64,000 bases of DNA from a virus, in IMG/VR virus record IMGVR_UViG_3300007541_000018, positions 1 through 64,000 of that record; one strand, written 5' to 3'. Below, piece after piece: positions 248-33,878 of this stretch; the first letter of the stretch is position 1; every line of letters starts with the position of its first letter. The notes under the pieces are model-generated. The model searched no databases. It was not told the DNA's origin and saw only the letters and a list, made by a program, of their open reading frames with translations. Position numbers and translations under genes: made by a program.

Positions 248-903
248 AATGTTAAGGCTTCCCAAGATACTGGGAAAAGAGGCTCTACAACTGAGTCTAT
301 AGCCCAAGCGTACTCTTGGGATTCTAACTGAGCGGTTTCTTCAACCCTTTGATTAAATATTCTTGCAGCAGTCGCCAGAGAAACAGTCCAATACCATTCC
401 GTGAACATGCTCTGTGGAAGAACAGCCCTTGCCAATTCTGGCGCTACTCCATTTATTATAGAGTATTCGTATGCGCTGTTGCAAATCTGTATGGCCTTTT
501 TATAAAGTTCTTTAACTTGCTCATGATTGTTGACATTTTTATTAATAGAACCCTGTTTGACGCTGCCTTCTGGTTTTTGTCTCCATATCTCTGGGACATA
601 GAACTGAGGGTCTTCTGAGACATATCTTCTAGAAACCTCGTTCTCTGTAGCACCTACCTTATGCTTAAACATTTGTCGAGCTATAAATATAGGGGCTTTT
701 ATGTGTAGAGTTATTTGAGGGTGAGCGAAAGGAGTCCAATGCTTATGCTTTGCAAGATAGCTAATCAGGTTCTTGTCCTTCTGGTCGAGTTCTGACTTAG
801 ACTTTTTGAATGATACTCTTGCTGCGTTAACCACAGTAAGGTCGGAACCCATATGATCTACATATCTAACAAAACCTTGATTTCCTAAAACGGGTATTTT
901 CAT
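244..903 (-). CDS. thyX: FAD-dependent thymidylate synthase ThyX
   Basis: 219 residues, normal ThyX length. ThyX methylates dUMP to dTMP using methylene-tetrahydrofolate, FAD and NADPH, supplying dTTP for phage replication. The signature is present but altered: the classical RHRx7SxR region reads KHKVGATENEVSRRY at about residues 80-94, with lysines replacing both arginines of RHR. The downstream AQLE...EYA segment, typical of the substrate-binding C-terminal half, is at about 190-200. The NEVSRRYV form occurs in other phage ThyX proteins to my knowledge, so this is probably an active variant. It overlaps the polymerase gene upstream and the phosphoesterase gene downstream by ATGA junctions, which places it in the replication operon. 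Confidence 0.93.
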   Translation of the reverse strand: MKIPVLGNQGFVRYVDHMGSDLTVVNAARVSFKKSKSELDQKDKNLISYLAKHKHWTPFAHPQITLHIKAPIFIARQMFKHKVGATENEVSRRYVSEDPQFYVPEIWRQKPEGSVKQGSINKNVNNHEQVKELYKKAIQICNSAYEYSIINGVAPELARAVLPQSMFTEWYWTVSLATAARIFNQRVEETAQLESQEYAWAIDSVVEPLFPVSWEALTL

Positions 904-2030
904 AGACCTTTACTCTTAATGTAATTTATAAGACTATCAATATTAGTCACCTTACCATCATCTGTAAAGTGAACTTCCTGACCATCCCCAAAAGAAGTGC
1001 CGACCTCTGCGTCAATCTTTAACGGAACATCTGGGTATATTCCAAAACATTCCTTTAAGGTAGGGGTATTTACCATTTCATCGTAACATATCTCTAGGCA
1101 AGATTCAATAGAGTCTTGAGGACATACTATCTCCAATGAGTCATGTACTGTTGAGACTATTCTAGCCCCTGTAGAAGGCAATCTATCTCCTAAACCTTTT
1201 ATAGCACAGAGAATTATATCCGAAGCAGCCGACTGAATAGTAAAATTCAATCCTTGCCGCATAGCTCGCTTCTGTAGCTTAGGATCCTCTGAGAAGACAT
1301 TAGAGAGTCTTCTCTTTCTTCCAAACATAGAGGTGATCTCGCCATCCTGCCTAATCTTAGAATATGTCTCGTCAATGTAAGAACCAATTCCAGGGAAGAC
1401 CTCCATGTAAGTGTTGATAATATGTTCCGCCCTGTCTATTGGAATCCTATTGTTGTTAGATAGGGTGAAGGCCGTGCCTCCATAGACAATGAGGAATGAA
1501 GTGGCCTTTGCAATTTGACGCTCCTCTTTTGATATGCTCTCCTGTGGCTTGTTGAAAAGAAGCGAGGCGGAATAACTGTGTAAGTCTGCTCCTTCGTTAA
1601 ACGCCTTTTGCATTACTTTATCATCGGCAACATGGGCAAGAACCCTCAATTCCATTCCAGCATAATCAATGGTGACAAAACCTTCACCCTTGTTTGCTAC
1701 AAATATATTCCTAATATTATTGTTGGTGTCCCGTGGTAGAGTGTGAAAAGAAACACCCATAGGCTTCTCTGCTGAATAAGCTCCGCACGAAAGTCTTCCA
1801 GTAGCTGTCCCGTCTAGGTTATATGAGCAGAACACCTTATTAGTATTATTATAGTCAGTTGCTTTAGTTATACCTGTAATATATGTCTTGTATAACTTAG
1901 ATGAAGCTCGATAAGCTAGAAGAGATTCAATCCATTGCTTCGCCTCGCGCAAATCCTCAGTAGATTTCTCCTGCAATACACTTCGAGCGACCATCTTGTC
2001 TTGGTCTTGTTTGCGGAATCTGGGTGACAT
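900..2030 (-). CDS. polA: DNA polymerase I (family A) polymerase core, third fragment
   Basis: 376 residues with all polymerase-domain signatures of family A: TATGRLS (75-81), motif A DYAGMELRVLAH with metal-binding D122, motif B RQIAKATSFLIVYG with R171, K175, F179 and Y183, and motif C VHDSLE with D297. These match the E. coli Pol I positions D705, R754/K758/F762/Y766 and D882. The exonuclease and most of the thumb are absent here and lie in the two upstream genes. The ATG at 2030 follows the previous stop by 16 bases. The first 35 residues are charged and have no counterpart in typical Pol I. Fingers and palm are complete, so the peptide should hold the catalytic site, probably needing the 2047-2547 product to complete the thumb. 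Confidence 0.95.
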   Translation of the reverse strand: MSPRFRKQDQDKMVARSVLQEKSTEDLREAKQWIESLLAYRASSKLYKTYITGITKATDYNNTNKVFCSYNLDGTATGRLSCGAYSAEKPMGVSFHTLPRDTNNNIRNIFVANKGEGFVTIDYAGMELRVLAHVADDKVMQKAFNEGADLHSYSASLLFNKPQESISKEERQIAKATSFLIVYGGTAFTLSNNNRIPIDRAEHIINTYMEVFPGIGSYIDETYSKIRQDGEITSMFGRKRRLSNVFSEDPKLQKRAMRQGLNFTIQSAASDIILCAIKGLGDRLPSTGARIVSTVHDSLEIVCPQDSIESCLEICYDEMVNTPTLKECFGIYPDVPLKIDAEVGTSFGDGQEVHFTDDGKVTNIDSLINYIKSKGL

Positions 2031-2046
2031 GTCTGTATAGTAGTCT

Positions 2047-2547
2047 CTATCGTTTCTTCTTAGACTTTTTCTGTCTTTCGGCCAATTCGTCGTTTATAAA
2101 CTCAAGAAGCTCGTCTAAAGTGGCTTTATCCGTGCTAGGTACTCCTTTAGCTGTCTTCTTAGGGGGGTATAATGCAAACCCTTCCTCGTCCGTAAACAGT
2201 ATCTTACGGAGATCAGCCGTTGATTGTACATTAGCTCCCTTGAAAACACTTTTATGCGTAAGCAAGTCGTCCTCTGCAATCATCTGTTGTTTATCAAGAG
2301 ACTTACCTACGATATCCAGTTCTTCTGTAGCTACATCTAGACCGTCATACTCCATCTTTGAGAACACAGGTAGCACCGGAGACAGTAGCTTCTCCATTAC
2401 ATTCCAGCAGCCCTGTTCTATTAGCTTCTCCTCTAATAGATGAAAGAGCTTCAATGTGAAGTGAGTGTCCATAGCGTTGCCTAAAAGGCAATCGCGTAAT
2501 GGGATGTTGGCCCAATCAAACTTCTTATTATCACCTACAGTTAGCAT
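2047..2547 (-). CDS. polA: DNA polymerase I second fragment: end of 3'-5' exonuclease plus thumb
   Basis: 166 residues aligning with the middle of a family-A polymerase. Residues 20-45 carry the ExoIII-type helix GNAMDTHFT, with D27 as the expected metal ligand; the usual YxxxD tyrosine is replaced by G23. The rest (about 45-150) is thumb-like and includes the STDKATLDEL segment that precedes the thumb tip in Pol I. The protein ends in a lysine-rich tail (KKSKKKR). Its ATG overlaps the previous stop as TAATG, so it is likely made by termination-reinitiation. By itself it contains neither a complete exonuclease nor a polymerase, and presumably assembles with its neighbours. A frameshift produced by a sequencing error is the alternative. 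Confidence 0.85.
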   Translation of the reverse strand: MLTVGDNKKFDWANIPLRDCLLGNAMDTHFTLKLFHLLEEKLIEQGCWNVMEKLLSPVLPVFSKMEYDGLDVATEELDIVGKSLDKQQMIAEDDLLTHKSVFKGANVQSTADLRKILFTDEEGFALYPPKKTAKGVPSTDKATLDELLEFINDELAERQKKSKKKR

Positions 2548-3554
2548 TACAGTTCATCTATCTCGTCTGCGAAGAATCTTTTGACAAGCTCCTTCAAACT
2601 CTTTGGATGCTCCTCGTCGAAGAGGTGAGCCATCAGCTTAGTATCATAGACATTCGTTGGGTAGATTCCAACATTGTGTAGGAATTTCAGATCGAACTTG
2701 GCGTTGTGAAACACCTTGCGATTCTTTGGGTTCTCTAGTATAGACTTTACGAGCTTCAAGACCTGATCATGATCATCCCAAGGTGCGTCCTTGTGGAACA
2801 GAGGAACAGCATAGTTCTTGTCCCGTACAGAGAACGCAATAGTGTTGAGCTTATCTTGTAGAAAATTTAAGCCTGTGGTTTCAGTATCGACCGCGATGTC
2901 CTCGTCAGTGTAAACCAACCACTCTAGATGATCGAAATCATCCTCGCACATAATCAGTTCGACAGGGATAGTCTTAGCCTTCTTTCCAAGTATTACCTTG
3001 TCAATAGCTAATTGAATATCCTGTACAAACTGTTCCTGTAGTTTAGGTTCACTTAAAACAGAGTATGGGTGCCATGTAGGTACTGCCGTGTACTCATGGC
3101 CCTCCTCTGTTTTCATATTAAATGCGGTCCCACGCTTATTAGTAATACCTGATTTGCGAATGACCATCTTCATAGCAAGGTTACCACAGGTGATAACTAG
3201 CTTAGGCTTAACCTTGTTGATAGTCTCTCTAAGATGCTGTTCGCACGCATGACGATCAGCAGTTTTCATGTCAGAGTCTTTTACTGTAGGACATTTTACT
3301 GCTGCTGAAATCTCTACCCTGCACCTCGCTCCAGAGCTAATAAGGACCTGCTCAATTAAGTCCATAGCATCTTTAGTAAAAGGGACATACCTACCCATCC
3401 TGGCTGTCATAGAATCAGATAGGATTAGTATCTCTGCCTCAGATAGGTCTGTGTAGTCCGTTATAGCGTAAGCAGGCTTTCTGCACTTAAGCTGTGAACA
3501 GCCTTTACAGAACGGATGAGGGGGAACCTCGTCAAAAATATCGTAAATCGTCAT
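2547..3554 (-). CDS. UDG-like domain fused to 3'-5' exonuclease N-terminal part (polymerase first fragment)
   Basis: 335 residues from the ATG at 3554. A TTG at 3578 would add 8 residues but would overlap the divergent sigma gene. Residues 15-190 resemble family-4 uracil-DNA glycosylase: cysteines C16, C19, C88 and C104 have the Fe-S spacing, and THPxxxL-type WHPYSVL is present. The catalytic GEAPG loop is replaced by LSDSM. Residues about 215-335 are the DnaQ-like exonuclease start: DTETTGL (D223, E225) and NAKFDLKFL (D288). The ExoIII aspartate is missing and lies in the next gene. A UDG-fold domain in front of family-A polymerases is known from SPO1-type phages. The chain stops at TAATG, immediately inside the exonuclease fold. 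Confidence 0.85.
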   Translation of the reverse strand: MTIYDIFDEVPPHPFCKGCSQLKCRKPAYAITDYTDLSEAEILILSDSMTARMGRYVPFTKDAMDLIEQVLISSGARCRVEISAAVKCPTVKDSDMKTADRHACEQHLRETINKVKPKLVITCGNLAMKMVIRKSGITNKRGTAFNMKTEEGHEYTAVPTWHPYSVLSEPKLQEQFVQDIQLAIDKVILGKKAKTIPVELIMCEDDFDHLEWLVYTDEDIAVDTETTGLNFLQDKLNTIAFSVRDKNYAVPLFHKDAPWDDHDQVLKLVKSILENPKNRKVFHNAKFDLKFLHNVGIYPTNVYDTKLMAHLFDEEHPKSLKELVKRFFADEIDEL

Positions 3555-3571
3555 ATCGGCTATAATAGGAT

Positions 3572-3916
3572 GTGGCAAGCAAAAATTATATTGACAATGA
3601 TAGATTTGAAGTATGCATTCGCCTTTACCTAGAGGGAGACGAATCCGTATCCGAAGAGCTATTCGGAATGTTTAACCTTCTTATTGAAAATGTGATGGGC
3701 GCGTTTGGATTTGATGTTGACAAAGAAGATGCAGTTCAGGAATGTTTTTTACTAATAATAAAGGTTCTGAAAAACTTTAACCCTGAGAATGGAAGTGCCT
3801 TCAACTTCTTTACAACTGTTATATTAAATAATTTGAAGCTAATATACACTAAACATAAAAAGTACGCTGAGAAGATTAAGAACTATGAGGATCTTAAATC
3901 TTCTCAGCGTAACTAG
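3572..3916 (+). CDS. T4 gp55-like late sigma factor, short form
   Basis: 114 residues, one of only two plus-strand genes. The core (about residues 50-100: DAVQECFLLIIKVLKNFNPE, then the FNFF and LKLIYTKHKKY segments) matches sigma region 2 as found in T4 gp55, which directs host RNA polymerase to late TATAAATA promoters. T4 gp55 is 185 residues and ends in a sliding-clamp-binding tail (SLDFLYE). Here the chain ends shortly after region 2 (YEDLKSSQRN) and no such tail is seen. The GTG at 3572 is the only possible start upstream of the core, because an in-frame stop lies just before it. The gene diverges from the polymerase operon and its end abuts the convergent gene at 3917. Confidence 0.75.
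   Translation: MASKNYIDNDRFEVCIRLYLEGDESVSEELFGMFNLLIENVMGAFGFDVDKEDAVQECFLLIIKVLKNFNPENGSAFNFFTTVILNNLKLIYTKHKKYAEKIKNYEDLKSSQRN
3863..3911 (-). terminator. Terminator hairpin inside the 3' end of the sigma gene
   Basis: A perfect 15-base-pair inverted repeat: 3863-3877 (TACGCTGAGAAGATT) against 3897-3911, with a 19-base loop whose ends can also pair. Read on the minus strand the stem is followed by CTTTTTATGTTT, a terminator-type U tract, so it should stop transcripts coming leftward from the 3917-4472 genes. On the plus strand the following bases are not U-rich. All of it lies within the last 18 codons of the sigma gene. Confidence 0.7.
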
Positions 3917-10309: not shown

Positions 10310-13300
10310 TTATGGTATAGCTGGTCCGCCTAGGCCTCCCCCTCCGCCTGGGCTTGCCCCTCCGCCTGGGCTTGCCCCTCCGCCTGGGCTTGCCCCTCCG
10401 CCTGGGCTTGCCCCTCCGCCTGGGCTTGCCCCTCCGCCTGGACCATCAGGCTCGGTGAGACCTAATCCTCCTTGGACTGAGTAATCAGGCTCGGTGATTT
10501 CATCGTAACTCACATAGTCTGAGGCTGGGTCCCACCAGTAGTTCTTTGAGGTGGTTACTTCCCCGGAGACTGCTGCGGCGAGTGACCAAGCCTCAGTAGA
10601 ACCAGACTCTTGAGATATTCTGTTATTCTCTATGGTTACGGCAGATAAAGTATAGTCCTGAGAAGGCCATGCGCCGACTCTTATTGATGCATCGGTTCCA
10701 CCTCTTAACCAGTTACCCGACACACTCACTCCGCTAACATCACCAAGCCTAGGTCTTATTCTGACGCAGTTCTGCATTCTATACCCAGAGGTTCCGCTAG
10801 GAGTGGAGATATAATTATCCTTTATCTCGATGCCTGAGCCTGAGTTGACAACTACACCGTAGTAATTTCCATCCTCAGCTAAACCTATTTGGTGTATGTA
10901 ATTGTTTGAAACAACTGCATTACCCTTAATGTTTATACCATTACCTCTACTGTTAATGACTTCACAGTTTCTAACAGTAATATTTTTACCAGTGATGGCT
11001 GCTCTATAAGATCCAGCGATTCTTCCATCTTCTATGACAATTCCTGAGTAGTCTTGGTCAGACTCTATTCCGTGAATCAATGTCTTTCTATCGAATATGT
11101 GGAAGTTTCTTAAGGTTACATCGTTAGCTCTTATCTTTACAGTGGTACTAGCCTTGAAACCCTCGTAGACTCCTGGCTGAGTAATAACATTGTTAATAAC
11201 CGAAGGATATTTTTCAGAAAGATCTCTTCTTACTGTAGGTGAAACCTCTTTTGGTATGAACAACGATCTAGATAATCCATCCCCATTAGGTCTAACCCTT
11301 GCTGGAAATAAGGTATCCTTATGAGTTTTAAACATTTCAGTTAAGAATGAGCTTCCTAGTTCACCTTCTCGTAAGTATCCTTGAGACTGATCATAGGCAG
11401 GGTCACCTTCAACTAAGCCTTCATCCATACTAATTGGTCTAGAGGCTGTTTGATAACCAAAGTAAAGCGTCTCTGGAGATCCGTAATCGCGTATCAGAGA
11501 ATCTATATCTCCACTAAACGCTAAGACGCTCATCGCTTCTGCGGCTGCCCATCGAGTATCCAAAGCTTTGTTTTGTTGATCAGCAGTAGTATCTACAGGG
11601 TTATTTGAATCTATACTTTCAAACTCTCCAGGAAGGGATGGTCTAGTTCTATCAAAAACTAGTTGCTCTACGACAGCTTGAGATAATGTTAAATCTCTAA
11701 CCCATCCAATAGGATCACCATGCCAAGTTCCTCCCTCAGATACTGTAATGTTACTAACCTCTACAGGAGTTACACCTGTAAGAGAAGTATCTAAATCATA
11801 CCTGTTATCATGGGTGTTTAACCAGAACAATCTTCTAGTTAAGTTGGTTGATGTAGCGGTAGAGATATCGCTTCCACTAGTAAGACCTCTAAGCCTTCTC
11901 ATTATTATTCCAGCGGATCTACTGATGTTATCATCAACATTGTAGAGTACGCCAGTAGAAGCTACAGCACCTAACATATCAACACAGTGTTGTGCTACAC
12001 TAACCATAAGATCCTGTTTATCAGAATCAGAAGTATGTAGTAATAGAGCAGCCTCATTGAATACTACTTGAGCATCACTTATAGTCCTTGGCATATTCTT
12101 ATAAGGTCTTGCACCCATGACCTCACCTCTAGGAATACCATAGTACCAAGGTCTACTCAAAAGCTGTCTAGCTCTCTGGACTCTAGTTCCAGAACCTGTT
12201 AGTAAGATATCTTCAGACTCTAATACATCAAGAGACTGGAAGTTATCTAAACTTAGTTCACTAACACTATAGTTTATTTTAGAACCAGGAGATCCGTAAG
12301 GACTGGGGCGTAATGATTCCTCAGGGATGCTAGTTACGCAAGTGAGAATAGACATGTCTCTTACGAAAATGTTTGGAGAGTTATGGCCTAAAACATCAGT
12401 CTCATAGGAAGTACTACTTCTAGTTGATACTAAACTATCGTGATGAACGAGTGTGACTGGATAAGTTACTGCTCCAGTAGCATCATAGTTCTCAACTCGA
12501 TCATCGAATGATTGGGCTGCATCAGGAACAGGGTTAAGAACACTACCGTTTCTCCCATCGGCAGGTGCAGGGGACACTGCTGTTACAGTAACATCAACCT
12601 CTCCATCAGGAACTAGGACCCAAGGGCTTCCATCAGCGAAAGATCCGTGTACTACGGCGTCACCAAACTCCCAAGAGATACCTGTTTCGTCATCAGTTAC
12701 AGTATCACTTACAGACCATTGGAGTTCAGTTACAGTTACAGTTAAGATGCCACTATCCTTTCCGTAAACTGTCATACCATCTTTTATGGCTTTCGCTCTT
12801 ACTACGAAATAGTACTCACCGTTTCCATTTAGGATGGCTGCGTTGGCGCTGGTATCTGAAGTCGTAGTTAATAAAGTATAATCAGCCTTGACCACACCAT
12901 ACTCTTTATCAAAAGAAGGATGTGATCCTTGGAACAAGTTAGTTGTTCCATACTCTCCAGACATTGCATACCCAAATAAAGCATTGTCTAGTCTATAAAC
13001 TTCATACTCTACTGAAGAATGCCCATCTGTAGTCACAGCATCCCAGCTAAGATCTATTGAAGTCTCTCCTGCTGAGTAAGAAGTTGTTGGAGATACAGCC
13101 TCTAATGAAGCTAGAGCGTAGAGAGCTTGGGCGTCAGTAGTTTCATTACCATCATACGCCCCAACGAAAGAAGTGTTGTTGAAATGAGGGTTGTGAGTAT
13201 ACCATTGCATCATAGGGGTGTGGTCATACTCACCTGTTAACCATAGCCATTGCATAGCCGCAGCTATGTAGGAGTTCTCCTCATCTGCGTAGCATGAGCC

Positions 13301-14911
13301 TGCTCCATTAGGAATGCACATATGACCAAAAGGAGAATGAGTTAATCCCCAACAATCCTTAACAGCCCTACCTGCCTGAGGAAGGTATAGGAATTGATCA
13401 ACCTCAGGTGGTAATGTAACTCCAAGTAGTTTTGCAAACCATAGCTTTATTGCCATATCGCCTTGACGGAACTCTCTGGCTGCACGCATGTCAGCTAATG
13501 TCAGTCCTGTAGGGCCTGCACTTACCCCCAACCCTAAGGTATTCCTGTAATAGCTTGCTGTTGCATGGGTGGCTTCAACATCACGAAGACCTAATGTTCC
13601 TTGGTTAGTTTTACCATAACTTATTATGTTAGGGAAACTACTTTTTAGTGTCTGGCAGACTGTAGCCTTGTTATAAAGAGGCTCGAATGTAGGGTTATAA
13701 ATACCATAAGTTTCTATCCCTAAATCCTCCATTCGATCATAAATAGCTGCTATTGCAAACAGCTTCATGGCAGATAGGTTTCTTTTCAAAGATACTGAAT
13801 TTACTCCATGAGAAGCCCATCTTCTTTTTGATACTCCTTGAGCCCAATCACCAGTACCGAATGCGGGTACGCTGCATACAAATTTAAATACATCCCAAAG
13901 CTGTTCTTTGGTTTCTCTATCAAAACCAGTACCGCTAACTGATGCGAATTTAAGAGCAGTGTTATAGAGAATGTCGATTATGTACTCAAATTGATTATGA
14001 TCAGTTAAGGAATTCTGTCGAGTGTCAATAGGTATCCCAGTTATAACCCTTCGATCTACTCTTGTACCTAGATTATCTTCGCTGGATAGATACTCATCAC
14101 AGGAAGTTAATAAAGGTTCGGCGTCTACTTCCTCCGGGTCAACGCATCTTTCCCTAATTATCTCACTAAAAACTTCCTCCCTGTAGACTTCACTATCTGG
14201 TCCAAGAACTAAATCATTATCAAAAGGTACATTAGGAACAACCTCTCCCATCTTGTCTTTGAATTTTTGCCACGCACTTACATCATAGGTTCCATCTGTT
14301 TTACCAAAAGGATACGCTCTATAAGTAGGGTAAGTGGAACAGTGTAAAGTAAATCCTTCACTTCCTCTTTCCAAAGTAGCAGGTAATCCTATACCACTAA
14401 ATGCAAAACCTACTACTAAAGTATCCCCATCCTGTAGAGTAACTGTGTAGCTCGCAAGATCATCTGAGCTATCTTCATAAGAAAACTCTGAAAAACTAGT
14501 CTCTGTACCATCATCACTTTCATCAATAGAAGTGGAGCCAAGGTCTGTAGTATACGATTGCCTAACAATAGGTGGCAGGACCGCCTCAAAGTCCCACCCA
14601 GAGGGAATTTCATTGTTATCATTTGTGAAAGGTAGCTGATTGAATGGTGCTCGTATAACCTTTACAAGCAATGCATGACCTAAGTCACCAGCGTTATCCA
14701 TTCTAAAAGCATCTTTAGTGCCCTTTAAGTTATGATGAAGATTAGGGGTGTTGTAGCTAATAGTGTAGCTTCCTGGGCTTACCCAGCCTCCTGTGGCTTT
14801 ATCAGAACCGCTAGATGCTCTCCAGATTCTTTGTTGAATATTAGATCTAGTTACTTTGATACCTAACTCATTAAATTGAGTTACTTCTTGATAAGGTATA
14901 AGGTCGCTCAT
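10310..14911 (-). CDS. Large tail fibre/adhesin with beta-helix and Gly-Pro-rich C-terminus
   Basis: 1533 residues from the ATG at 14911, directly after the giant gene; an upstream GTG at 14938 would overlap that gene. Residues about 250-600 contain a helical, tryptophan-rich region rather like alpha/alpha-toroid carbohydrate-active proteins. Residues 604-730 look like a fibronectin-III-type domain (IDLSWDAV...YEVYRL...YYFVVRAKA). A WxFG...GSPWVLVP module follows, which is shared with the giant protein. Residues 1244-1457 are a right-handed parallel beta-helix (repeats such as GIVIEDGRIAGS, NITVRNCEVINS, GNAVVSNNYIH). The C-terminus is a GGGASP repeat. Host recognition or surface-glycan binding is inferred from architecture and location; no catalytic residues were assigned. 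Confidence 0.85.
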   Translation of the reverse strand: MSDLIPYQEVTQFNELGIKVTRSNIQQRIWRASSGSDKATGGWVSPGSYTISYNTPNLHHNLKGTKDAFRMDNAGDLGHALLVKVIRAPFNQLPFTNDNNEIPSGWDFEAVLPPIVRQSYTTDLGSTSIDESDDGTETSFSEFSYEDSSDDLASYTVTLQDGDTLVVGFAFSGIGLPATLERGSEGFTLHCSTYPTYRAYPFGKTDGTYDVSAWQKFKDKMGEVVPNVPFDNDLVLGPDSEVYREEVFSEIIRERCVDPEEVDAEPLLTSCDEYLSSEDNLGTRVDRRVITGIPIDTRQNSLTDHNQFEYIIDILYNTALKFASVSGTGFDRETKEQLWDVFKFVCSVPAFGTGDWAQGVSKRRWASHGVNSVSLKRNLSAMKLFAIAAIYDRMEDLGIETYGIYNPTFEPLYNKATVCQTLKSSFPNIISYGKTNQGTLGLRDVEATHATASYYRNTLGLGVSAGPTGLTLADMRAAREFRQGDMAIKLWFAKLLGVTLPPEVDQFLYLPQAGRAVKDCWGLTHSPFGHMCIPNGAGSCYADEENSYIAAAMQWLWLTGEYDHTPMMQWYTHNPHFNNTSFVGAYDGNETTDAQALYALASLEAVSPTTSYSAGETSIDLSWDAVTTDGHSSVEYEVYRLDNALFGYAMSGEYGTTNLFQGSHPSFDKEYGVVKADYTLLTTTSDTSANAAILNGNGEYYFVVRAKAIKDGMTVYGKDSGILTVTVTELQWSVSDTVTDDETGISWEFGDAVVHGSFADGSPWVLVPDGEVDVTVTAVSPAPADGRNGSVLNPVPDAAQSFDDRVENYDATGAVTYPVTLVHHDSLVSTRSSTSYETDVLGHNSPNIFVRDMSILTCVTSIPEESLRPSPYGSPGSKINYSVSELSLDNFQSLDVLESEDILLTGSGTRVQRARQLLSRPWYYGIPRGEVMGARPYKNMPRTISDAQVVFNEAALLLHTSDSDKQDLMVSVAQHCVDMLGAVASTGVLYNVDDNISRSAGIIMRRLRGLTSGSDISTATSTNLTRRLFWLNTHDNRYDLDTSLTGVTPVEVSNITVSEGGTWHGDPIGWVRDLTLSQAVVEQLVFDRTRPSLPGEFESIDSNNPVDTTADQQNKALDTRWAAAEAMSVLAFSGDIDSLIRDYGSPETLYFGYQTASRPISMDEGLVEGDPAYDQSQGYLREGELGSSFLTEMFKTHKDTLFPARVRPNGDGLSRSLFIPKEVSPTVRRDLSEKYPSVINNVITQPGVYEGFKASTTVKIRANDVTLRNFHIFDRKTLIHGIESDQDYSGIVIEDGRIAGSYRAAITGKNITVRNCEVINSRGNGINIKGNAVVSNNYIHQIGLAEDGNYYGVVVNSGSGIEIKDNYISTPSGTSGYRMQNCVRIRPRLGDVSGVSVSGNWLRGGTDASIRVGAWPSQDYTLSAVTIENNRISQESGSTEAWSLAAAVSGEVTTSKNYWWDPASDYVSYDEITEPDYSVQGGLGLTEPDGPGGGASPGGGASPGGGASPGGGASPGGGASPGGGGGLGGPAIP
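10341..10440 (-). repeat. 18-base tandem repeat encoding GGGASP
   Basis: Five exact 18-base units (10341-10430) plus a partial sixth unit, in frame at the C-terminus of the fibre gene. Each unit encodes the six residues GGGASP. Being exact at the DNA level, the array can change length without breaking the frame. It is followed by a short GGLGGPAIP end. Confidence 0.9.
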
Positions 14912-14918
14912 GGTATTA

Positions 14919-17900
14919 TTATTGAGTATCACATTCACATCTAAGCTCAGATGTAGGGTTCTCCACTAATAGATAGGGTTTTGTAACGCCATCCTCATCA
15001 ACTAAAGTACCGTCAATACGCTGATTGTTTGGATAGTTTGAATATCTTTTAAGGATGCTCCATGGATATCCTGGGATAACCTGCCCTCCTTTTTGTAAGA
15101 AATCTTCTACATCTAGAACTGGGTTAGTGGTTCCACCTATCGTGGTCCCGTCAGTTAATCTGATCTTTCTACAGGAAAGACCGTTATCATTAGACCACTT
15201 GTTAGTGTAGTCACTAACAACATCTATCACTGCATAATTATCTGTTATACATGCAGACATGTCTGCATAACCAGCAGCCTCAGTATAACCTAGAGACCTA
15301 TAGTAATCGCAAGAATAGTAGGGAGCGTTTGAATCAACAGCAGAGGGGTCGTATGCATGAATGACCTGATGAGGAATATTTATGTTCTGTCCATCATTCA
15401 AGTTATACATTCCATAGTTAGTTGCCGAGTCTATTTGATTACCTGCAACCCAGTGAATAGTTGGGTTAAATCCAAGAACACCTGAGGTAGCACTACTAGA
15501 ATAACCCGTATCGTTAGAGCAGTTAGTGGCGTTGTAGAGAGGTAATGAGATGCTTTCCCAAGTCTCTGTTGGAGAATTCTCTTCAGCACACGCTCTTAGC
15601 TGCCAGAAATACCTTGTAACGCCTCCTGATGTTCTGCTTGTTTTACTAAATTTGCTACTCTTTGTTATAAAGTTATAGCTTCCAGTTCCTCTAAAGTAGC
15701 ATCCACTTAAGTAAATATTATGCCATATATTACTTCCACCAGTGGTAATTAAGAACTGACTGGTTCCAGTGCCCTTAGCTCTAACGGTATCGCTACCACT
15801 AGGTGCTAAGTAACCATCTATTGTTGGACCGTCATCATTTAAGAAAGATGCTGGGTTTATAAATCCTCTTCTATCTATGAGTAGTTTACTGCCTGGGATG
15901 TTAGCAGTTCCTGAGTCAGACCATTCTGGGCTGCCTGCGCCAGCGAAGGTACATCTTTCAAGGATTATATCAGTAAGCTGTTTCCTATCCTGCTGGAATG
16001 TGTCAGCATGGGGTGCCTTGCTAGGATAGGCTGCGAACCATTGATCATTGGTGGCACCGCACTGAACATGTCTAGTAGGAGTACATCTTTCTACAGCATG
16101 TACAAACCCATTAAAGGTTCTTGTAGCTGGCACACAATCAAATAGCTCAGGTCTATCTCCTGGGTTACAGGAAGCTCCTGCGCGGACACTTCCTGCTGGG
16201 CCTATCCAACATTCAGACATCTTCCAGTCTCTAGTGTTTGGGTAAGTTCCTACAGGTATTATGTTTATAGAATCACCTACATACCAGTCTATGTTAAGCC
16301 TTCTTGCGTTGTAAAGGGGAACATTTATTGTCTTCGATCTGCAACCTCTAAAGGTACACCATTCAAAACTTACTTCTTGAGGATGAACCCCGTTATAACC
16401 GTTAATTATGTAAGAGTTTCCTCCATGTTCTGTAGAAGATCCACCTACATTATCACCGTTATTATTCTGGCTTAGTTGGCTGTCAAGTCCAGAGAATACT
16501 ACCCCATCAGCAAACTTCTCATACCAGTATAGCTGTCCTATGAATAAGCAGTCAACAAAGTTCAGAGGGTTATTAGTTTTTATCTGTAGTATACCGTTAC
16601 TAGCAGCGTTAGCTACATCGTAGTTAGTTCCAGAGAACACTACTCCAGATATAGTAAGACCTGTAACAGGAACCTCAGTGCAGTTTGGAAGTGCTCCGCA
16701 ATCACCAGGGTCTACAAAATAGTAGGGGTCAGTGGTTATTGCAGATATATCCATAGCGGAAGTATAAAGCCTATGCCCAGTATTTTTACCTGTTATTTGA
16801 GCAGTAGGGTCTGCACTATCATCTATGGCAGGTGGGTATAGGTTACCGTCACCGACATCTCCAGCCCCTTGAGTCCAAGAATTGTTGTTTGGGTCAGTAG
16901 ATGGAGGAGATGGGAAAGTTCCAGTAAGAACATCCGATAGGTTTGCGTAAGGAATTGTAGGGAAGAAACCTTCAGCGTATCTGTAAGCGGAAGCTTCACA
17001 GTCCCAACCGTCTCCTGTTGCGAAGTCCCCAGGGGCGCTAAGAGAGAAGTCTGGGTAACGGTACCTGTACTTGTCAAAGTAATAGGCGGGGGCCTGTCTG
17101 CCCCAACCCTCATCATCAGAACCAGTCCAGAGGTTGCCTGTATTAGGCTCTCTTTTCTCATACCCTATTGATTGTCCGTTTGCATCGGTCAGGTAGGGTG
17201 GGTCGTAGTTCAGCAATGCTGCTCTATCAATGTAGTCTAAGAATGGTTTGTGACCAAACTGATCTACTAAACCCATCTCTCTTATCGCTAGTGCCATTCC
17301 GTAGCCAAATCTAGCAAGCTGAGATTTGTACTTTGGAACATAATGCTCATTTGTAAATCCAGAAGAGGATTCTTGTTGCCAAGCTGGGAATCCATAAATG
17401 TTCCATTCAGGCATTCCTATTTGAGTTGTGCTGTAGTTTACACCTGGAACTTGAATATCCAGCTTACATAAGGTTCCATTAGCGTAGTTAAGGTTTAGAT
17501 CTGTACCACAAACCAAACCAGGGTCACTAGAATTAGCAGGAGTACTTTCCCCATCTTCTAAGTAGAGGGTAGTGTTAACCATATAAGTATTACAGACTCC
17601 ACTAGTAGTAGGATCAGTCCTACAGTTAGGACTTTCTGGTGGGCAAGTACCGTCTTGCTCACAAACAAACCAGTTAATGTAGTCTGGTACATGGAAGGTG
17701 TTAAGGTTCTCACTAAACCTACCTGCATTCTCTACTAGATCAGTTAGATCTTCGTTGAACATGATTCTCTTGAACCATATTGGGAAGTAACGACCTTGCT
17801 TATGACCACCTTCAGGAACCCAGTAAGCACCTTCCTTGAACCTTTCATCAAGGTCTATACCTACCTGGAGAAGCCAGTAAAGAATAGGCTTCTTGGTATC

Positions 17901-20900
17901 TAGAGGAACATCTAGGTTAAGCAGCACAGCAAGATGACCTACGATGTTGAACAGACCACCTCCAGTAGTTCCGTATAGAGTTGTTTGTCTCACTGGACCA
18001 AACTGCTGCATCCTCCAGTCGAAGTTATCATTAGCAACTATGTTGTTACACCACATATTACTATTCTTCTGGTGGACAGGGGCATATAGCTTTCCAGTAG
18101 AGTCAGCACCTGGGTAGTTATGAGAAGGATTTATCTGATACCAGACTTCTGCATTACCGTCAGAGCCGTCTTGATGTGTAGGCTTTCTCTCAACAAAACT
18201 AGCAAAGTTGGGGGCAAAGCTTAGTATTGGAAGGTTCTTAAGCTTTCCGTAATCTATAGCAGAAGTGTGGTAAGGAGAGGTCTTGCTGTTACTAAAAGGT
18301 CCTGGGCGGAACCATCCACCATCAGGATTTTCCCAAGGATTAGTCACAGGATTCTGGACAGGGTTGCGATGAGTAGCGAACCAGTTGGTTATGGTTTCGT
18401 TTACAGCCTTTATCATCTCATAAGTACCATCTCCAGAAACATCTACCCCAGGCTTATTTGGGAAGTAGAGTTGGTGAACATTGACATGGTTACCGTTCTC
18501 ATCCAAGATTGGGAACGATTGCCCTTGCGAGTTAGGAGAGGTGCTCCAATATTTTTCTCTCCAAGCCCAAGGCCAAGAACCATCACTGAAAGGCCCAGCA
18601 GCACCGACCTGAACAACTCCAGTACCAGCGTTAGTAGCTCTCCACTTATGAGCGTGCATGAACCATATGAATCCATCTGCACCTGCTTCTAGACAGGAAA
18701 GAACTAAGCTATTTACTTGATCGTAGCTAGGAGTTTCGTTATGGTAGTACTCAAGTGCTCCGTAGTAGGGATTTACACTTTGGTCGTTAACAGAAGATAC
18801 AAATACTGGACTACCTTCTAGTGTTGGGTAGACAGGTTTACCGTTAGGGAATTGAGGTGTAGTAGACCATTCTTTAATTCTATGGACACCGCTAACAACC
18901 CACTTAGCATCATCAAGAACCTTTGGAGTTGAGAAGTAAGGGTTGTCATATAATTCTGGTGGGTCTACACTGCTCGCTGTTACAGCCCCAGTAGGCTTAG
19001 TACAGTGTGGGTAGTAGTCGAACAGGAACCCATCGAACTCAGGGATCTGCGCCACTGCTGAGAAGAATGAAAGCTGATCTTCTTGAACAGTTCCGTCATC
19101 CCATACATGACCAGCGCGTGCCCTTGGATCCAATCCAAACCATCCAGCGATAGATACGCCCTTAGAGAAGAAATAGTAAAGCTTCTTATCAGGGTACTGC
19201 TGTTTGAACTGCTCTGCTCTTTGCTTGATATCATCGTAGCCTGCTCCGTAAGTGTAATATGTTTGGTAGATATCTATAGTCCAACCGTTACCATCAGCAG
19301 GCTCGTAATCATCACCAGAGTCTAGTACATATACTGGAGCTTGACCAGCGGATATAGTTGCACTAGCCTCAAAGACAGTTGTTTTTCCATAAGGAGCCGC
19401 GCCAGCAACACCTCCGTTAGATAGACGATCTATAACATAAACCTTATCGCCTATAGAGTAAGTTTTAGTAGAATCATACTCCTCGTAATGGCCGTACCAA
19501 TCACCGTTTAGTTCAGCCTCATGACCTAACATCCAGAAGTCTACACTTTCAGGAGTACCGTCTCCATCAGGATCGACTACTGTAAAGTTCATAGGCCAAT
19601 CGTCACCTAGATTGCCTCCTCCTGGCTTAAACGCTTCTCCGTATTGGTTTACAAGACCATACTGTCCTACAAAGCGAAGCCCCTTATCTAAAAGGGATTG
19701 AATTTCAGATTGAGTATAAGGTTGATCAAAGTTGGTTGGGAACTTAGAACGGACCAACATGTCGATTCCTAAGTCCTTGTTCTCTTGAGCGATATCTACT
19801 AGCCTGTTAGGAAGTGTAGTGTCGTTTAGATACTTTTGTGTTGGGGCGTACCAGCTTCCGATTCTTCCAGGAAGAAGGTTAGCGTAGTAATCTCCAAACT
19901 GTCTACCGCCTCCATTAAAATCCGCAGGAGCCTGATCTAAACAAGTGAGAGGTTGAATAGTCTTAAGTCGTCCACCAGACTCAGACTTATTTGAATTTAG
20001 ATAAGGAGCATTTATACTGTAAGTCTGTGGGTTTGCTGAAAGACTGTACATTCCTAGACTGACTGGGCCAGTCCCATCATCGCGGAATACTTCATATTTT
20101 TCGTCAGTTCCTATGTTAGGAATCCAAGGCTTTTGAGACTCACACCATGAACTATGCAAAGTATCCCCTGGTTGAAGTGTTATGGGATTGGTTTGAGATA
20201 CAGGGTTTGCACCGCCACCAGTGTTAGAATAAGGTGCTGAAGGCCAAGCTGCATTTAAATTGTGATCGTAAGTGCCATCCATGTAAAGGGTAGTCTCCCA
20301 ACCTTCTAGCCAACCATGTCCTCTTCTAGCTGAGTTGGCTACATCGTAGAAGAACTCCCATCCACTAACAACAGACCAGTCAGTAGAGAATTCATCAGGA
20401 GTTCCTACAGTAGCGTCTATTCTACCTTGACCGTATTTGTCATAGCCTGCATAGGTTTCAGGATTAATCATAGATCCGTTAATGTAACCCCCTAACTCAG
20501 GTCTGTACTCTGGTTTAGGATATATGTCTATAACATTAACAGGACCTACAACCCACCAATCGCCTGTAACATAGCGACCAGCTTCGTAGTCTCCATCGAA
20601 GTACCAAGTAACTCCCTCGTCAGTTGTGATGGAGTTTACCATCTGGCCTCCTCCTGGGCCTTGACCACCAGTACCACCACCAGTACCACCACCAGTACCA
20701 CCACCAGTGCCTCCAGTAGCTCCATCATTGACAACGAATGTGAACTCAGTGTTGCTTCCTAAATCAGAATCAACAGAAGAATCTGCTACAAGCTTAAAGG
20801 TACTGGATAGATCTCCTTGGTTTCCTGTAGCACTTGTAATACCTACTGTAAACTCCCAATCCTGTTCAGCAGCATCAAGACTTATATCAAAGGAATTGGC

Positions 20901-23900
20901 TCCATCTAGGGTTATACCTACAAGAGATAGTCGAGTCTCTTCTGCTGGTATGTTTGCACTTACAGTAAGGGTCGTAGCACTTTGAAGAGGTAAGTTGTAT
21001 CGACCTGTTACAGTAATCTCCTTGTAAGTAGCATCCTCAATAGTTATCTCTTGGCTTCCATTAAAGTTTGCCTTTGGAACAGGTGCTGTAGTTACAATAC
21101 CGTTATCAGCCATGGGACCTGCGTAGAAGTTTGCAGACACATCAGCCGCGTCAAGAGCAGCAGCATAAACTGATACCCTGAATATATCTCCTAACCAATG
21201 TCTGGTAACAGTGTCAGTAGTATCCTTTTCGTTGGCGATTGTGAGAGCGTAATCACCGAAGTTATTAGAGAGGACTCTGGCGTCTTGGAAATTAGTTCTT
21301 TGGAATGGGTCGTCAAGATTTTGGATGTAGAGATTATTCTCAGTACCTCCATTATCGTTGTAAGTGTTGACCCAAATCCTGACACCGCTGGCGGTAGAAC
21401 TTTCTACTGATATTACAAAGTGCTGTAGCTCATCTTCAACAATGTTAAGGGAAGTGTTGGTGTTAGAGTAGGAATAGTTACCACCTCTCCAATTAAACTC
21501 ACCTCCTCGATTCATTCCAAACATAAAGTTTGTTAAACCACCACCTACTTGAGTAGGATTAGAGGGGTTAGACCACGACACTAATCTAGCAGGACCTCCG
21601 AGTGTTGTATCAGAGCATCTAGCCCAAATCTCAATTGTGTAAGATCCTCCAGAGAGTTGGTCGATGAGGAGGTCAGCACCTGCGCTTAGTGTAAATCTAG
21701 ACTCATTGTTTATCTTTGTGAATGTTGCGGCAGGGGTAGTAACCTCAGTAGTGCTACCAAAATCTTTCTTTAGAATGAGACTAGATACTAGATCTGTAAT
21801 TTCGTTACTAGCGTTCATACCGCTAAAGATCCAGTCAGCTTTAAGATCCGTGCTTCTCTTTGAAGTGTCAGGGGGATCAAATACACACCCCGTAGCAGGA
21901 AGACCTACATCTTGACCATAAGCAGTTACGAAATCATTGTAGGCATCAGGAAGATCAGGGTTCCAAGAAAGATTCCAATCAACATGAGCCATCTCTCCAA
22001 CCAATCCTCCAAGGTTTGCTTGGTAATACCCTAAAGTACCTACAGCGTTAGTAGATCCATTAGGAACCTCATTAACCATTATGAAACCAAAAGCCTTGGT
22101 AGCGTTATCGTAGCTGCTAGGAACTACAGAAACATAATCATTACAGTCTGCCCCAGCACCAGTGAGATAATTTGATATTGAGCCTGACTGTAGTGTCATA
22201 CTTACAACATCATTAAATTCACACCCTCTGAAAGCCGTGGCAACTCCCTGTTTACCCCATTTTAGGAATCTTTCATCTCCAGTTAGTCTATAAGAAGTTT
22301 TTAGAGATGTGAAGTTTCTAGCATTCCATAGGGGAGAGGTTGATCCTCCAGTAACACCTACGAAGTCCCATCCTATATGATCCACGGAGGGGATTCTTTG
22401 ACCGTTTACTTTTATAGAGTTTATAACCTGACCAGCGGGGAGCGTATTCTCTAAACCGTGTGCGGAGGTGTTTACGAATAGATCAGGATCATCATAGTCA
22501 TACGCAGAAAGTGCGGGGACAGTATACTCTCTAGCCTTATCTACATATTCCCATTGTCTAAGAGTTGGGTAGGCAACTAAATCTCTCAGTCTAGTTTCAA
22601 GAACAGTAAGATTGTTTGGATCAGTATCATTAAGAGCTTGGGCTACAGAGAACACACCATTGTTCCAAAAAGCTCTCATGTAGTCCTGATAGCCACCGAA
22701 ATCAGCACCGTTAATACCCTTTCTTCTTTGATATTCAGTGATGAAATCAGCTTTAGGCAAGTCTATTAGTTGCTTAAAGCTACTTAATGTACAATCTAAA
22801 TAAGCAGCCTTTCCAAGTTCAGCTACTGGGTACTGTGAAGTTAGTCCTGTATTCTGGCCTAAACTACCATCATTGTAAGGAGTATTTCTTCCAGGACTGA
22901 GGGTTTTCCAACAAGCTTCTGAGAAAACATCTGCCCATGCGGCATAGTCTACCTTATCAGAACCCTTTAATAATCTTCCTAAAAGACCTACGGACTTAAT
23001 ACCCCATCCAGATATTCTAGAACCTTGCTGTGAGAAGTATTGCTGTGCTGGATTACCAGTTACGCCATACAATGTCCAAGTTCCGTTTTGGACGGCTCCA
23101 TAAGCGTTAGTAGCATTATACCAGTAGGAGTTCTTCTGCTGATAGTTAACGCCATTAAGAGTGTAAGTGCCTAAGGTATCATAGTTTGAGAAAGCAGTTT
23201 GGTAGTAGTTTCCGTACTGCTTAGTAAGCCACTTCCCTGAACCTAAGTTAGCGTTCCAAACTAACCCGTCAAGATGGAAAATAGATCTGATGGTCCATGA
23301 GTCTTTGTTAGTATGCCACTTAGACCCAGGCTTCTGGCTGAACTCACCTTCACAAATCCACTGGTTCTGGGTGGTGTTTTGTGCCCTTACAGTGTTATAA
23401 ATACTTTGTCTACTAGAGGGCTTAGTGCTCCACATTCTGTTAGTAGGACAAAGAGGTACAAATTTATTTACATCATTTACAAATGGACCGTTGAAGTGAG
23501 GCCAGTGAGTGTTCTCACCATTGTTGTTACCTATTGCAAAAGGTAGTATTGGCTCAGAGGTTCCCTCAAAAATCTGAGTGGCTTTAGCTATATCATGAAT
23601 TGAAACAGGCTTACCTGTAGGAGAGGTCATGGTTAGCCTGTTTCTCATCATTTGCATCTTCGCAATGGCCCAGGATCTTTCAATCTCAGCGTCATTTAAT
23701 TCTATACCATCTTCGGCTCTGATAGCAAAACCTCCAGGAGCACCCTCGTCTTGCTCTCCGTAAGGTCTGTAGAAGGTATGTACTTTTGGATCAGAAGAGT
23801 TAGTTAGATTAGAGGATATGAAAGAAAGCCCATCGCTTCCAAATCCGAATGGGTTTTGTCTTCCATTAGTAGATCTAGCATTGATCTTGTAGTGTCTAGC

Positions 23901-26900
23901 TATTGCTACCGACCTTGCTTTTAGAGCATCAAACCCAGAGGAGTCGAAGCTACTGTAAATAGATTGTAGGTTTGAATTTGATACAGACGATGGTCTGCTA
24001 GTTTCTACTTGATCCCAATCAGGTATGTAATCTCTAGTGCCACCCCAACCTCTAATTGCGAAGTAGTTGTTTCCGAAAGGCTTTCCTGTAACAGCGTCTC
24101 TATAAAGAGGTAGAGAAGCAGCGTAACCACCGAATCTGTTTACCCAAAGAGCGTGAGCTTTTTGGGTTTCAGACCCTTGAGAGATCGCAACCTTTACTGC
24201 AAAGCAACTTCTTCTTGGAAGTAAGTGCAGTGAGTAGTCACTGGGAGCTAGAACAGAAGGGTTGTAGTTACCAGGGTTAGAGGTTTCAATTGGTCTTACT
24301 AAGTAACCATAAGTATCATCGGTGAATGTTTCTGAAGGAATTTTTTGAATAATATTGTTAACCCCGTTAACAAACTCAGTTCCTTCGTGCATAATTAGAC
24401 CAGCGGGGAGGTTTAGCTTGATGTCATAGAAGAACACATCCCCGTTAACCTCAGGGTGGTCTGCGTAACGATCTCCAATAGTGGGATCATAAATGTCGTT
24501 GTGAATTATAAACTCTACCTGTGCAACATCTAAGTCGGCTCTTTGAGTTACATAAGCGGTTACACCTAAAAGTTTAGGAGAGTAACCTACAGGCTCTTGC
24601 CCAGCAGGCCATACATCAAACTGTGTAAATAGTTGGCGCTCTTTTATGTAACTACCATCCCTTACAACTTCAACTTCTGTCCATGTAGAAAGAGGAGGAG
24701 TGTTTACACCTATAACAGAGTTTACAGAACCATCACCATTATCAAGGTGTATGGTTAAGTAAGCACTATCTAGATTAACATCTGTTATAAAGTTTTGAGA
24801 TGGGCTACCTTGTGCTATTCTCTCAAGAACAGACTCGTTATCAGAGGAGGTAGCAGTAAGGCTATAGTTAGCATAGTCTACTGTGTAAGTTGGATCAGCA
24901 GGACCTACAACTTGTACAGTGTCTACCAGATCACCAACATAGCTTACTGGGAAAACATCTGCAACTGTACCGTCAATCATGAAGGAGGGTAAGTTTGCCT
25001 CATCTACAGGATCAATAGGTACTGTAGTTTGAACTAAGTAGTAAGAAGGATTAGTCTGAATGTAACCACTAAGGGGAGAAGTTACCTTATCAGTGACATA
25101 GTAATTGTCGTTAACTGAAGTCCACTTTAGGATTGAAGGAGGACCTTGAGTACTACCTACAGTAGTATAATCCACCGACACGGTTTTAGCTCCAGTGTGT
25201 GCAGGATCTATGGTAACTAAATCGTTACCAGTTCCAGGGTATGCTGTACTAAAAGCGGTAGGACCGCTATTTACAATTCTTATACTTACATCGCCTTGTG
25301 TACCAGCCTCAATGGTAATAGAGGAAGTTACAGTTGTGGAGTGAGCAGGGATGACAACTGTGTTAGGGAATACAACACTTCCAGCAGCACCAGCAGCAAC
25401 ACTTGCGATTATAGGTACAGTAGTGTCGGCAGATACACCTAGACCTAAATCAAATGTTAGATCTACAGTAACATCTTGATCATAAGGAACAAGAACTGAG
25501 GTGGGGTTTATGGTCCAAGTAAGATTAGTAGCAACATCATCATCAATTAGTTTGAAGATGTGGTTGTGCTGAGTTGGGTCAGATGGGGTTGGACCTGCAA
25601 TCACTGCGTTGTTATCTGTAGAACTAGCATCAACTATAGCGTATCTTACTACAGAACCAGCGTTAGCTGTTGTATCATCACTTACATAAACATTGTAGGT
25701 AAAGTTACTCTGACCAGCGGTCAGGCTAATATCTATAGAAGATACAAATACTCCAGAGCTAAGGCTGACCCTTTGGTCAGTATTACCAGCAACGGATTCT
25801 ATAGTTACATATCCTCCTACAGGCACGGCAGGAGTAATAGTTCCTGAAAGCTCAAAGGTTTCACCGTCCCATTCGTTAGTTGTAATTAGATTGGTAGGAC
25901 CATAATTAGATAGATCGAAAGTGCTTTCTACAGCAGGAACAGCACCATCAACAGCCACAGTATAAAGAGACTGGCCTGCAAGCATTCTTCCATAAGCTGC
26001 GTCAGCTACATCTACACCTGCATTAATATCAAACGACCCTGTAGTAGCTGTTACAGCAACATCGTAAGTAGTAGTTATAGACAATGACCCTGCGGGTAAA
26101 ACTACAGATGCAGGGGCAGTAATGTCTCCACCTAGAGTACCTACAAAGTTATTGTAGAAAAGGTTTACCTGAATATCTTGGCTGGATATTCTCGATGCTG
26201 TGAACTCAATGGTAGCGGTATCACCTGCTGCTGGGTCGCTAGTAGTGTTGCTTCCAAATGATAAGAATATTAGTTGCTCATCATCTAGAATTTCTAGATC
26301 GAAAGTAGTAGGATCAAGTACAGGAGTTATAGTTAGAGGAGTCCCAGGTAGCTCGTTTACAGAATCAATGCTAAAGCTTACAGTAACATCTTGGTTTGTA
26401 ATGTCTTCGTTACCTACGGTAACTGGAATAATTACAGAGCTAGTTCCTTGAAGAATCTGCCCAGTGTATGAGGCATCGAGCCTTCCTGCGGCGGTGTTCT
26501 CAGGGACTATAACAATATCCACTGTCTCAGGAAGAAGAGTGTCCGATACAACTTCAATATCTACTGTCTCGTTACCATACTCAGTAGCAGTAGTGCCTAC
26601 CTCAGCAAAGCTAAAGGTTACTTGGTTCGCATCGCCGTCAATGCTTATATGAATGATCTCGTCTGGATCAGTAGTAGCATTTCCAGTAGATACAACAGCC
26701 TCTAGATAAAGGTTAACATTAGGATATGCGGTATCAAGTATATTAAAGGAAGTACTTACAGGGCTAGTGCTATACGCAGGAATAGTTACGGTGTTGATAG
26801 GAGAGTAATCTCTGTTCAAAACAGCAGTAGTGGTTTGTCCTGTAGAGGTTGTTGATACAGGGCTGATTGTAACCTCTACATCTTCTTTGTAGAAATTACT

Positions 26901-32801: not shown

Positions 32802-33878
32802 CTATCTTTTTCTTGCTCGCTCGGCCTGCTTGTTCCGCAGCATTCCACTGTATCGTCCTGGCTTTTTAGTAGCCAGCGTATCAGGTTTCATGAAAGAATC
32901 TGGTTTGACACCCTGCTTTCTAAGTGCGCCCTCACCTTCCTTTCTTCCAAGCTTCTTCACTGCCGTTAAATCCTGAGGAGAAGCCATGCCAGTTGTCTTT
33001 TGAATCGCCTTCTGAACTCTTGCTAATCTCTTAACTCCGCGAGAGCCTTCTCGTAAAAGAAGATCTCCTATGCGAGCGAACACTGAGGACTCTTTTTTCA
33101 TAGTCTTCTTCATTTTCTTACCCATGGCAGAGGCTATTGCGTTTCTTCTGTTCTTAAGATACCCATCAGTGCTATCAACTTTACCATCGTTGTTGACATC
33201 CTTATCCTCTTTTCCAACAGGGTCAAGCTTCTTACCCTTCTTAGCCTTCTTAGCCTTCTTCTTTTTCTTACCTTCGTTGAGTCTTTCTTCTAGAAGAACT
33301 GTGAAGACTTTCTCTGCTGCGACCTTAGGAATAAGGCTTTCGCAAATCTCATTAGCAAGGGCTACGCTAGACTCAGAAAGGCCAGGGTATGCGCCACGGG
33401 TGCTTGGATCAGCAACAAGGTCCCAGGTGATGAGGCGGAAGTCCTCGTTGACATACTTTTTACCATCAGCTTCCTCAGATAGTGTGCCCATACCGCGAGA
33501 AGAAATCCCTACCTGAACTCCTCCCTTAATTAGAGCTTGGGCAACCTTACCCATAGGAGTGTCAAGAATTTCAGCCTCACCAATAAGCTCATTGCCATTC
33601 ATCTCAAGTTTGGTGATAAGGTGAGATACCTGAGACAACTTAACGCTATCGTGTTGAGGGTGATCAAGCTCACCTACTAAGCGACGATTCTTAATTGATT
33701 CACTTAGCTTAGTCATCTCTCTTTCGAGAAGAGGCTTTCTGTAAACTCTTCCGTTGTTATTCTCCTCGTTGGCTCTTTGAAAGACCCCTCGAATCTTCAT
33801 AACCTTACCATGATCCTTATCCTCATTAAGGATCTGTAGTCGTTCTACAATAAAAACATCTTCAATTAGGTTGCTCAT
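32802..33878 (-). CDS. gp21: Prohead maturation protease (T4 gp21-like) with lysine-rich, EF-hand-like C-terminal extension
   Basis: 358 residues, against 212 in T4. Residues 1-200 are the protease: GELDHPQH (H73), GISSRGMGT (S126/S127) and LVADPST (D157) supply the His-Ser-Asp catalytic set of the phage prohead protease family. The extra 160 residues contain a lysine-rich block (204-217), an EF-hand-type calcium loop DVNNDGKVDSTD (227-238) followed by GYLKNRRNAIASAMGKK, then a basic tail. A gp21-type site (LLE, about 195-197) lies between the two parts, so the tail could be released as a core component; this is inference. The ATG overlaps the previous gene's stop. The protein should cleave scaffold, capsid and itself inside the prohead. 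Confidence 0.92.
   Translation of the reverse strand: MSNLIEDVFIVERLQILNEDKDHGKVMKIRGVFQRANEENNNGRVYRKPLLEREMTKLSESIKNRRLVGELDHPQHDSVKLSQVSHLITKLEMNGNELIGEAEILDTPMGKVAQALIKGGVQVGISSRGMGTLSEEADGKKYVNEDFRLITWDLVADPSTRGAYPGLSESSVALANEICESLIPKVAAEKVFTVLLEERLNEGKKKKKAKKAKKGKKLDPVGKEDKDVNNDGKVDSTDGYLKNRRNAIASAMGKKMKKTMKKESSVFARIGDLLLREGSRGVKRLARVQKAIQKTTGMASPQDLTAVKKLGRKEGEGALRKQGVKPDSFMKPDTLATKKPGRYSGMLRNKQAERARKR

Follow-up and report, generated by a model that had tools for sequence, protein, structure and literature searches.

Three consecutive genes that very likely encode one phage family-A DNA polymerase, with a conserved break inside the exonuclease fold

The window analysed here comprises the first 64,000 nucleotides (nt) of the IMG/VR virus record IMGVR_UViG_3300007541_000018. 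At positions 900–3554 it carries three consecutive minus-strand genes, P1, P2 and P3, over which a uracil-DNA glycosylase (UDG)-like domain, an exonuclease and a family-A DNA polymerase are spread. P1 (2547–3554, 335 residues) contains the UDG-like domain at its N terminus followed by the first part of the exonuclease with the ExoI and ExoII motifs, P2 (2047–2547, 166 residues) supplies the last part of the exonuclease, the ExoIII helix, together with the thumb, and P3 (900–2030, 376 residues) forms the polymerase core, namely the end of the thumb, the palm and the fingers. The open reading frame (ORF) listed for P1 extends to a TTG at 3578, whereas the starts of its relatives line up with the ATG at 3554. 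P1 and P2 meet within the exonuclease fold at junction 1 (J1; minus strand, 2545–2549), a TAATG in which stop and start share 1 nt and the frame changes by −1. At junction 2 (J2; minus strand, 2028–2049), which falls within a charged part of the thumb, the TAG of P2 is followed by 16 nt and the ATG of P3, with a frame change of +1. Both junctions have the geometry given in the initial annotation of this window. The 1-nt overlap is one of the ordinary junction styles of the genome, being found at four of the tabulated junctions, J1 included.

The initial annotation had read the three genes as a single Pol I, and the reading frames and similarity searches agree. P1 matches the Pfam 3'-5' exonuclease family PF01612 over residues 202–332 (E = 6.4e-21) and the UDG family PF03167 over residues 40–178 (E = 5.4e-11), and phmmer pairs it with family-4 UDGs and with Pol I exonuclease chains. 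P2 matches the thumb end of PF00476 (E = 3.4e-4) and also Klenow (E = 2.5e-7), to which it aligns from Y497 onward, covering the ExoIII helix and the thumb. P3 has the palm and fingers of family A, with a PF00476 match of E = 9.8e-76 and phmmer matches to Taq and other Pol I enzymes. In most records the PF01612 match within P1 ends at approximately model position 128–136 of 173, which places the ExoIII part outside P1. Counted by eye from a conserved serine to the ExoIII position, P1 and P2 together span J1 with about as many residues as Klenow, and the fold seems to have lost nothing there. The UDG-like domain itself (P1 residues 40–178; minus strand, 3021–3437) has the expected fold by profile and by structure, since the joined P1–P2 model described below matches 4zby and 4zbx. 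Residues C16, C19, C88 and C104 of P1 are invariant, align with the iron–sulfur cysteines of family-4 UDG (4zbx) and are predicted cluster ligands. In the position of the family-4 catalytic motif, P1 has LSDSMT and not that motif, as read off the alignment alone.

A scan of viral contigs with P3 returned ten loci at 69–100% identity, all with both breaks. Profile scans of viral contigs yielded 343 locus records, many of them sharing contigs, of which 112 were non-identical and had P1 and P3 in full (loci are numbered here with the prefix L). One hundred have three separate genes, five have a separate P1 followed by joined P2 and P3 (L421–L425), and seven are intact single chains, among them the polymerases annotated in Lysinibacillus phage LysYB1 and phage ctfzr933. 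The 105 split relatives, which belong to uncultured phages, reach down to roughly 40% identity, yet J1 lies at the same place, between ExoII (D288 of P1 in the window) and ExoIII (D27 of P2), in every one of them, and J2 lies ahead of P3 in 100. Related genomes, in which the initial annotation had proposed to look for the same two breaks, do carry them. The collections searched yielded no intact close relative, a P2 profile scan of genome_contigs gave no cellular relatives, and isolated phages hold only distant relatives at ~27–33% identity; LysYB1 and ctfzr933 are among the nearest annotated relatives of P3 (~30–33%).

Frame changes of −1 and +1 in assembled contigs are what sequencing or assembly indels, or a pseudogene in decay, would be expected to leave. 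However, the same breaks recur in 105 and 100 non-identical loci, and J2 persists although its geometry differs by lineage, with overlaps of 1–52 nt, gaps of 14–21 nt or an inserted gene, and with a variable start codon. Moreover, the ratio of nonsynonymous to synonymous substitution rates (dN/dS) is 0.02–0.05 in each of P1, P2 and P3, in close pairs where it could be computed, and a search of ten records for other polymerases turned up the split enzyme alone (see below). The 105 relatives refute the indel or pseudogene reading, to which we attach practically no weight. Neither single-base indels nor intact-gene relatives with unchanged flanks, either of which the initial annotation had said would refute it, emerged when tested through the relatives.

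In a tree built with IQ-TREE (LG+C20, quick search, supported by the Shimodaira–Hasegawa-like approximate likelihood ratio test, SH-aLRT, only), all split loci group together, apart from the intact polymerases (SH-aLRT 100), and the five loci with joined P2 and P3 are sister to the 100 three-gene loci (SH-aLRT 99 and 97). J1 and J2 each need one change on this tree. Because the two-gene loci branch first, the exonuclease break appears to be the earlier and the thumb break the later, each having occurred once, although the position of the root, with its long branches to the intact rows, is the weakest part of the tree. Thumb and palm, which J2 cuts apart in the window and in 100 of its 105 relatives, are on one chain in L421–L425, and their separation is a departure in gene structure and not in fold. 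As separate observations, the match to the P3 profile is divided over two ORFs in L439, L457 and L467, where a phage PolA is apparently broken elsewhere, and L447 has its exonuclease and polymerase parts on separate ORFs; these other breaks could be introns or further fissions.

The four carboxylates of the DEDD exonuclease are all present, but on two chains. ExoI provides D223 and E225 of P1 (minus strand, 2880–2888), ExoII provides D288 of P1 (minus strand, 2691–2693), and the fourth is D27 in the ExoIII motif GNAMD of P2 (minus strand, 2467–2481); the ExoI and ExoII patterns and GNxxD are kept in 105 of 105 split loci. The ExoIII tyrosine, at the Klenow Y497 place four residues before the last aspartate, is G23 in P2 and glycine in every split member, whereas it is retained in all six intact relatives that can be aligned. 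It follows that the loss of the tyrosine accompanies the chain break and that the exonuclease may be altered; with the loss clade-wide, standard DEDDy proofreading chemistry cannot be assumed. In P3, motif A is represented by D122, motif B by R171-K175-F179-Y183 and motif C by H296-D297-S298, the last being HDS and not HDE, as it likewise is in most intact phage relatives. The earlier statement that all catalytic residues remain is thus right for the exonuclease carboxylates and wrong for the ExoIII tyrosine and the third residue of motif C.

These residues bear directly on whether P1 belongs to the polymerase at all. It could instead be an independent UDG-like/nuclease protein, leaving P2 and P3 as an exonuclease-free polymerase in which the ExoIII helix is a leftover. 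The universal exchange of tyrosine for glycine would fit such an arrangement, as would the distance of 2.3–2.4 kb at which P1 can stand from P2, and exonuclease-dead Pol I enzymes such as Taq and Bst are known. Nevertheless, the ExoIII aspartate of P2 is conserved without exception together with the three carboxylates of P1, which alone would be without the fourth ligand; the order P1-P2-P3 is preserved in every split locus counted, and dN/dS is equally low in all three genes. We regard an independent P1 as unlikely, if still deserving of consideration, and favour a P1 that forms part of the polymerase.

Whether the pieces could be made as one polypeptide is addressed by the variation at J1. 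Of the 105 split loci, 63 have the exact 1-nt overlap, and their stop is TAA in 53, TGA in 8 and TAG in 2, so that the stop codon changes among relatives yet the overlap of stop and start persists. In 37 of 105 loci P1 and P2 lie over 100 nt apart, a state that requires ~20 changes on the tree. The inserts are mostly whole genes and include thyX (L421), glutamine synthetase (L424), a 2-oxoglutarate (2OG)-Fe(II) oxygenase (L103), a glycosyltransferase (L137), a small membrane protein (L037 and others) and genes on the opposite strand (L033, L044, L068, L129 and others). A deoxynucleotide kinase lies between P2 and P3 in L325 and L337. With unrelated genes inside the breaks, the pieces cannot be one translation product in those phages. 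A programmed frameshift or stop read-through that rejoins the chains in translation would suit the −1 difference between frames at the 1-nt overlap, where a −1 shift could carry translation from P1 into P2. We consider it very improbable, since no slippery heptamer is seen at the TAATG, the frame of P2 is closed by a stop 3 codons upstream of the ATG, the stop codon itself varies and inserts, some on the opposite strand, rule it out in about a third of members. Rejoining by RNA or protein splicing has precedent in other phage polymerases interrupted by introns and split inteins (PMC6892783; an intron is considered possible in PMC10580990). Here, however, an Rfam scan of 13 insert-bearing loci gave no intron match, there is no intein-like extension at the end of P1 or the start of P2, J1 has no extra sequence in most members and the Pfam-matched inserts are ordinary genes, which makes splicing an even fainter prospect. 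Nor does a homing endonuclease lie at the break as in the gp43A/B type of split: none was found among the J1 inserts scanned, which are other genes or without match, and most members have the bare 1-nt overlap. A homing endonuclease may have been present at the break anciently and since been lost.

The gap between P1 and P2 is also an insertion hot spot, with opposite-strand inserts in L016, L042, L068, L080, L099, L129, L274 and L311. Many of the J1 inserts are opposite-strand basic proteins with a common N-terminal motif like MNxYxxI...(L/I)xE, which resembles the T4 capsid-targeting sequences of internal head proteins. The window encodes an S77 prohead protease (32802–33878), and the J1 inserts are possibly a store of injected proteins. 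A second recurrent insert, encoded on the strand opposite the polymerase genes in L033, L044, L055, L077 and L129, is a ~160-residue protein with a lipobox-like start, of which the L044 copy gave zero Pfam matches.

Structural modelling made use of L147 and L144. P1 and P2 share a frame in L147, L146 and L148, with only a stop and one codon ahead of the P2 ATG; in L147 this spacer is TAA-GAC. Reading the L147 stop as Gln gave a joined P1–P2 chain, which was modelled with AlphaFold from an unpaired alignment of 72 P1 rows and 12 P2 rows (mean predicted local distance difference test score 85.1, predicted template modelling score (pTM) 0.65). J1 is placed in a loop between exonuclease-fold helices 332–339 and 357–382, a block of low confidence with a mean of 59. 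Foldseek matched this model to the phiLo family-A polymerase (9qhs, E = 4.5e-11), Klenow (8oo6, E = 3.7e-10), the single-domain exonuclease NrnC (template modelling score 0.68 on the target) and family-4 UDG (4zby), and the named matches in a viral structure library were mostly DNA polymerases. The best viral structural match, UniProt A0A7D3UIE5 (in BFVD), is a 641-residue unnamed protein; it is short for a UDG-exonuclease-polymerase chain and may be another split polymerase. In L144, P2 and P3 are re-joined through a 2-nt change, and a model of this chain places J2 in a loop, modelled as disordered, that connects two helices of the thumb; the locus is used as support only, since its contig runs off inside P3. 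Both models are of tethered single chains and do not prove assembly.

Ten records of 39–131 kb, the window's own included, each have one PF00476 match, and they gave no match to PF00136 (family B) or PF07733 (the alpha subunit of DNA polymerase III, PolIII). The case for the split enzyme as the only polymerase of these phages is strong but not final; completeness is unreported for the ten records. We propose, with a probability of about 0.82, that P1, P2 and P3 are separately translated subunits of one family-A replicative polymerase which assemble non-covalently and form the proofreading site from two chains. The initial annotation had suggested a working split enzyme, and this is still the best reading, with both breaks conserved clade-wide and no intact close relative in the collections searched. 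The individual elements carry different weight: a genuine three-gene polymerase is very likely, and we infer that reassembly of the three chains without covalent bonds is likely and that the assembled chains very likely have polymerase activity, while a proofreading site that is active across two chains is a little more probable than not.

We propose the following course of events. An ancestral single chain would have been broken first at the surface, in the loop that leads from the final helix of the ExoII part to the ExoIII helix, and one lineage would then have been broken again in the thumb, just ahead of its last long helix. The resulting subunits would fold together without covalent bonds: P1 would contribute the UDG-like domain with ExoI and ExoII, most of the thumb would come from P2 along with the ExoIII aspartate, and the polymerase core from P3. 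Two polypeptides would then complete the proofreading site, which keeps all four metal-binding carboxylates but has glycine in place of tyrosine and a chemistry that may be altered or slowed. Several points weigh against this proposal. The sequences all come from assembled contigs, the complex is inferred with structural support from a tethered chain, an unpaired alignment and a pTM of only 0.65, and the ExoIII tyrosine is absent from every split member, so that the exonuclease could be weak or dead. A bolder version would make this an obligate three-subunit polymerase in which a tyrosine-less DEDD chemistry at the two-chain proofreading site arose with the break, and in which proofreading could be attached or removed by subunit exchange; we hold this to be speculative and rather doubtful. 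Family-A polymerases are normally single-chain, and here an old cut between the catalytic residues of proofreading has been kept across a large clade. The intact outgroup, the two-gene and three-gene forms and the one re-joined chain make up a natural series for studying when and why an essential enzyme tolerates being cut, whether two chains can carry out proofreading and what the loss of the tyrosine did. A naturally split family-A polymerase could also have practical use, as its activity would depend on bringing the subunits together.

Elsewhere in the window, the gene 3' of P3 is thyX, a flavin-dependent thymidylate synthase (minus strand, 244–903; PF02511, E = 6.2e-45) that overlaps P3 by 4 nt. 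A small plus-strand ORF (3572–3916) is divergent from P1 and has a sigma-70 region 2 match below threshold (23.1 bits against a cut-off of 24). The structural region includes a single minus-strand reading frame of 4392 residues and 13 kb (14919–28097), and near the tail genes a 1542-residue protein (minus strand, 10310–14938) ends in a GGGASP repeat tail. Two adjoining minus-strand genes (45346–45927 and 45949–48339) both match phrog_5417 and are perhaps a tandem duplication.

Other phage enzymes in pieces can be compared. The initial annotation had cited RM378 as a precedent, but nearer ones are the split T4-type gp43A/43B of Aeromonas phages and the two-gene PolA of OM43 phages. The family-B gp43 is split into gp43A and gp43B in the T4-related Aeromonas phages 25 and 44RR, and the two phage 25 proteins co-purify and have polymerase activity (PMC2988022). 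As here, a phage replicative polymerase is encoded by more than one gene; however, gp43A/gp43B has two pieces and is associated with a seg homing endonuclease or intercistronic sequence, whereas the present enzyme belongs to family A, has three pieces and is broken through the exonuclease fold, mostly without an insert. In the OM43 phages MEP401 and MEP402 and related marine viral genomes, PolA occupies two ORFs with a small ORF between them (PMC10580990), the break lying inside the PF00476 polymerase domain with the exonuclease on the first ORF, in contrast to the breaks in exonuclease and thumb described here. LysYB1 and ctfzr933 have the same UDG/exonuclease/polymerase order on a single chain and keep the ExoIII tyrosine. 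The genes-in-pieces ribonucleotide reductase NrdA of phage Aeh1 (PMC2988022) is likewise an essential phage enzyme that is split in a functionally critical region and still works, although it is a different enzyme with a homing endonuclease gene as the splitter. Jumbo phages have a split PolIII alpha subunit (PMC7824862), in which a catalytic unit is also divided between separate proteins, but this belongs to an unrelated family, is encoded by distant genes and is extra beside PolB. A split PolB with an intein has also been described in a phage (PMC6892783). A word search of open-licence papers found neither a three-gene family-A polymerase nor a break between ExoII and ExoIII.

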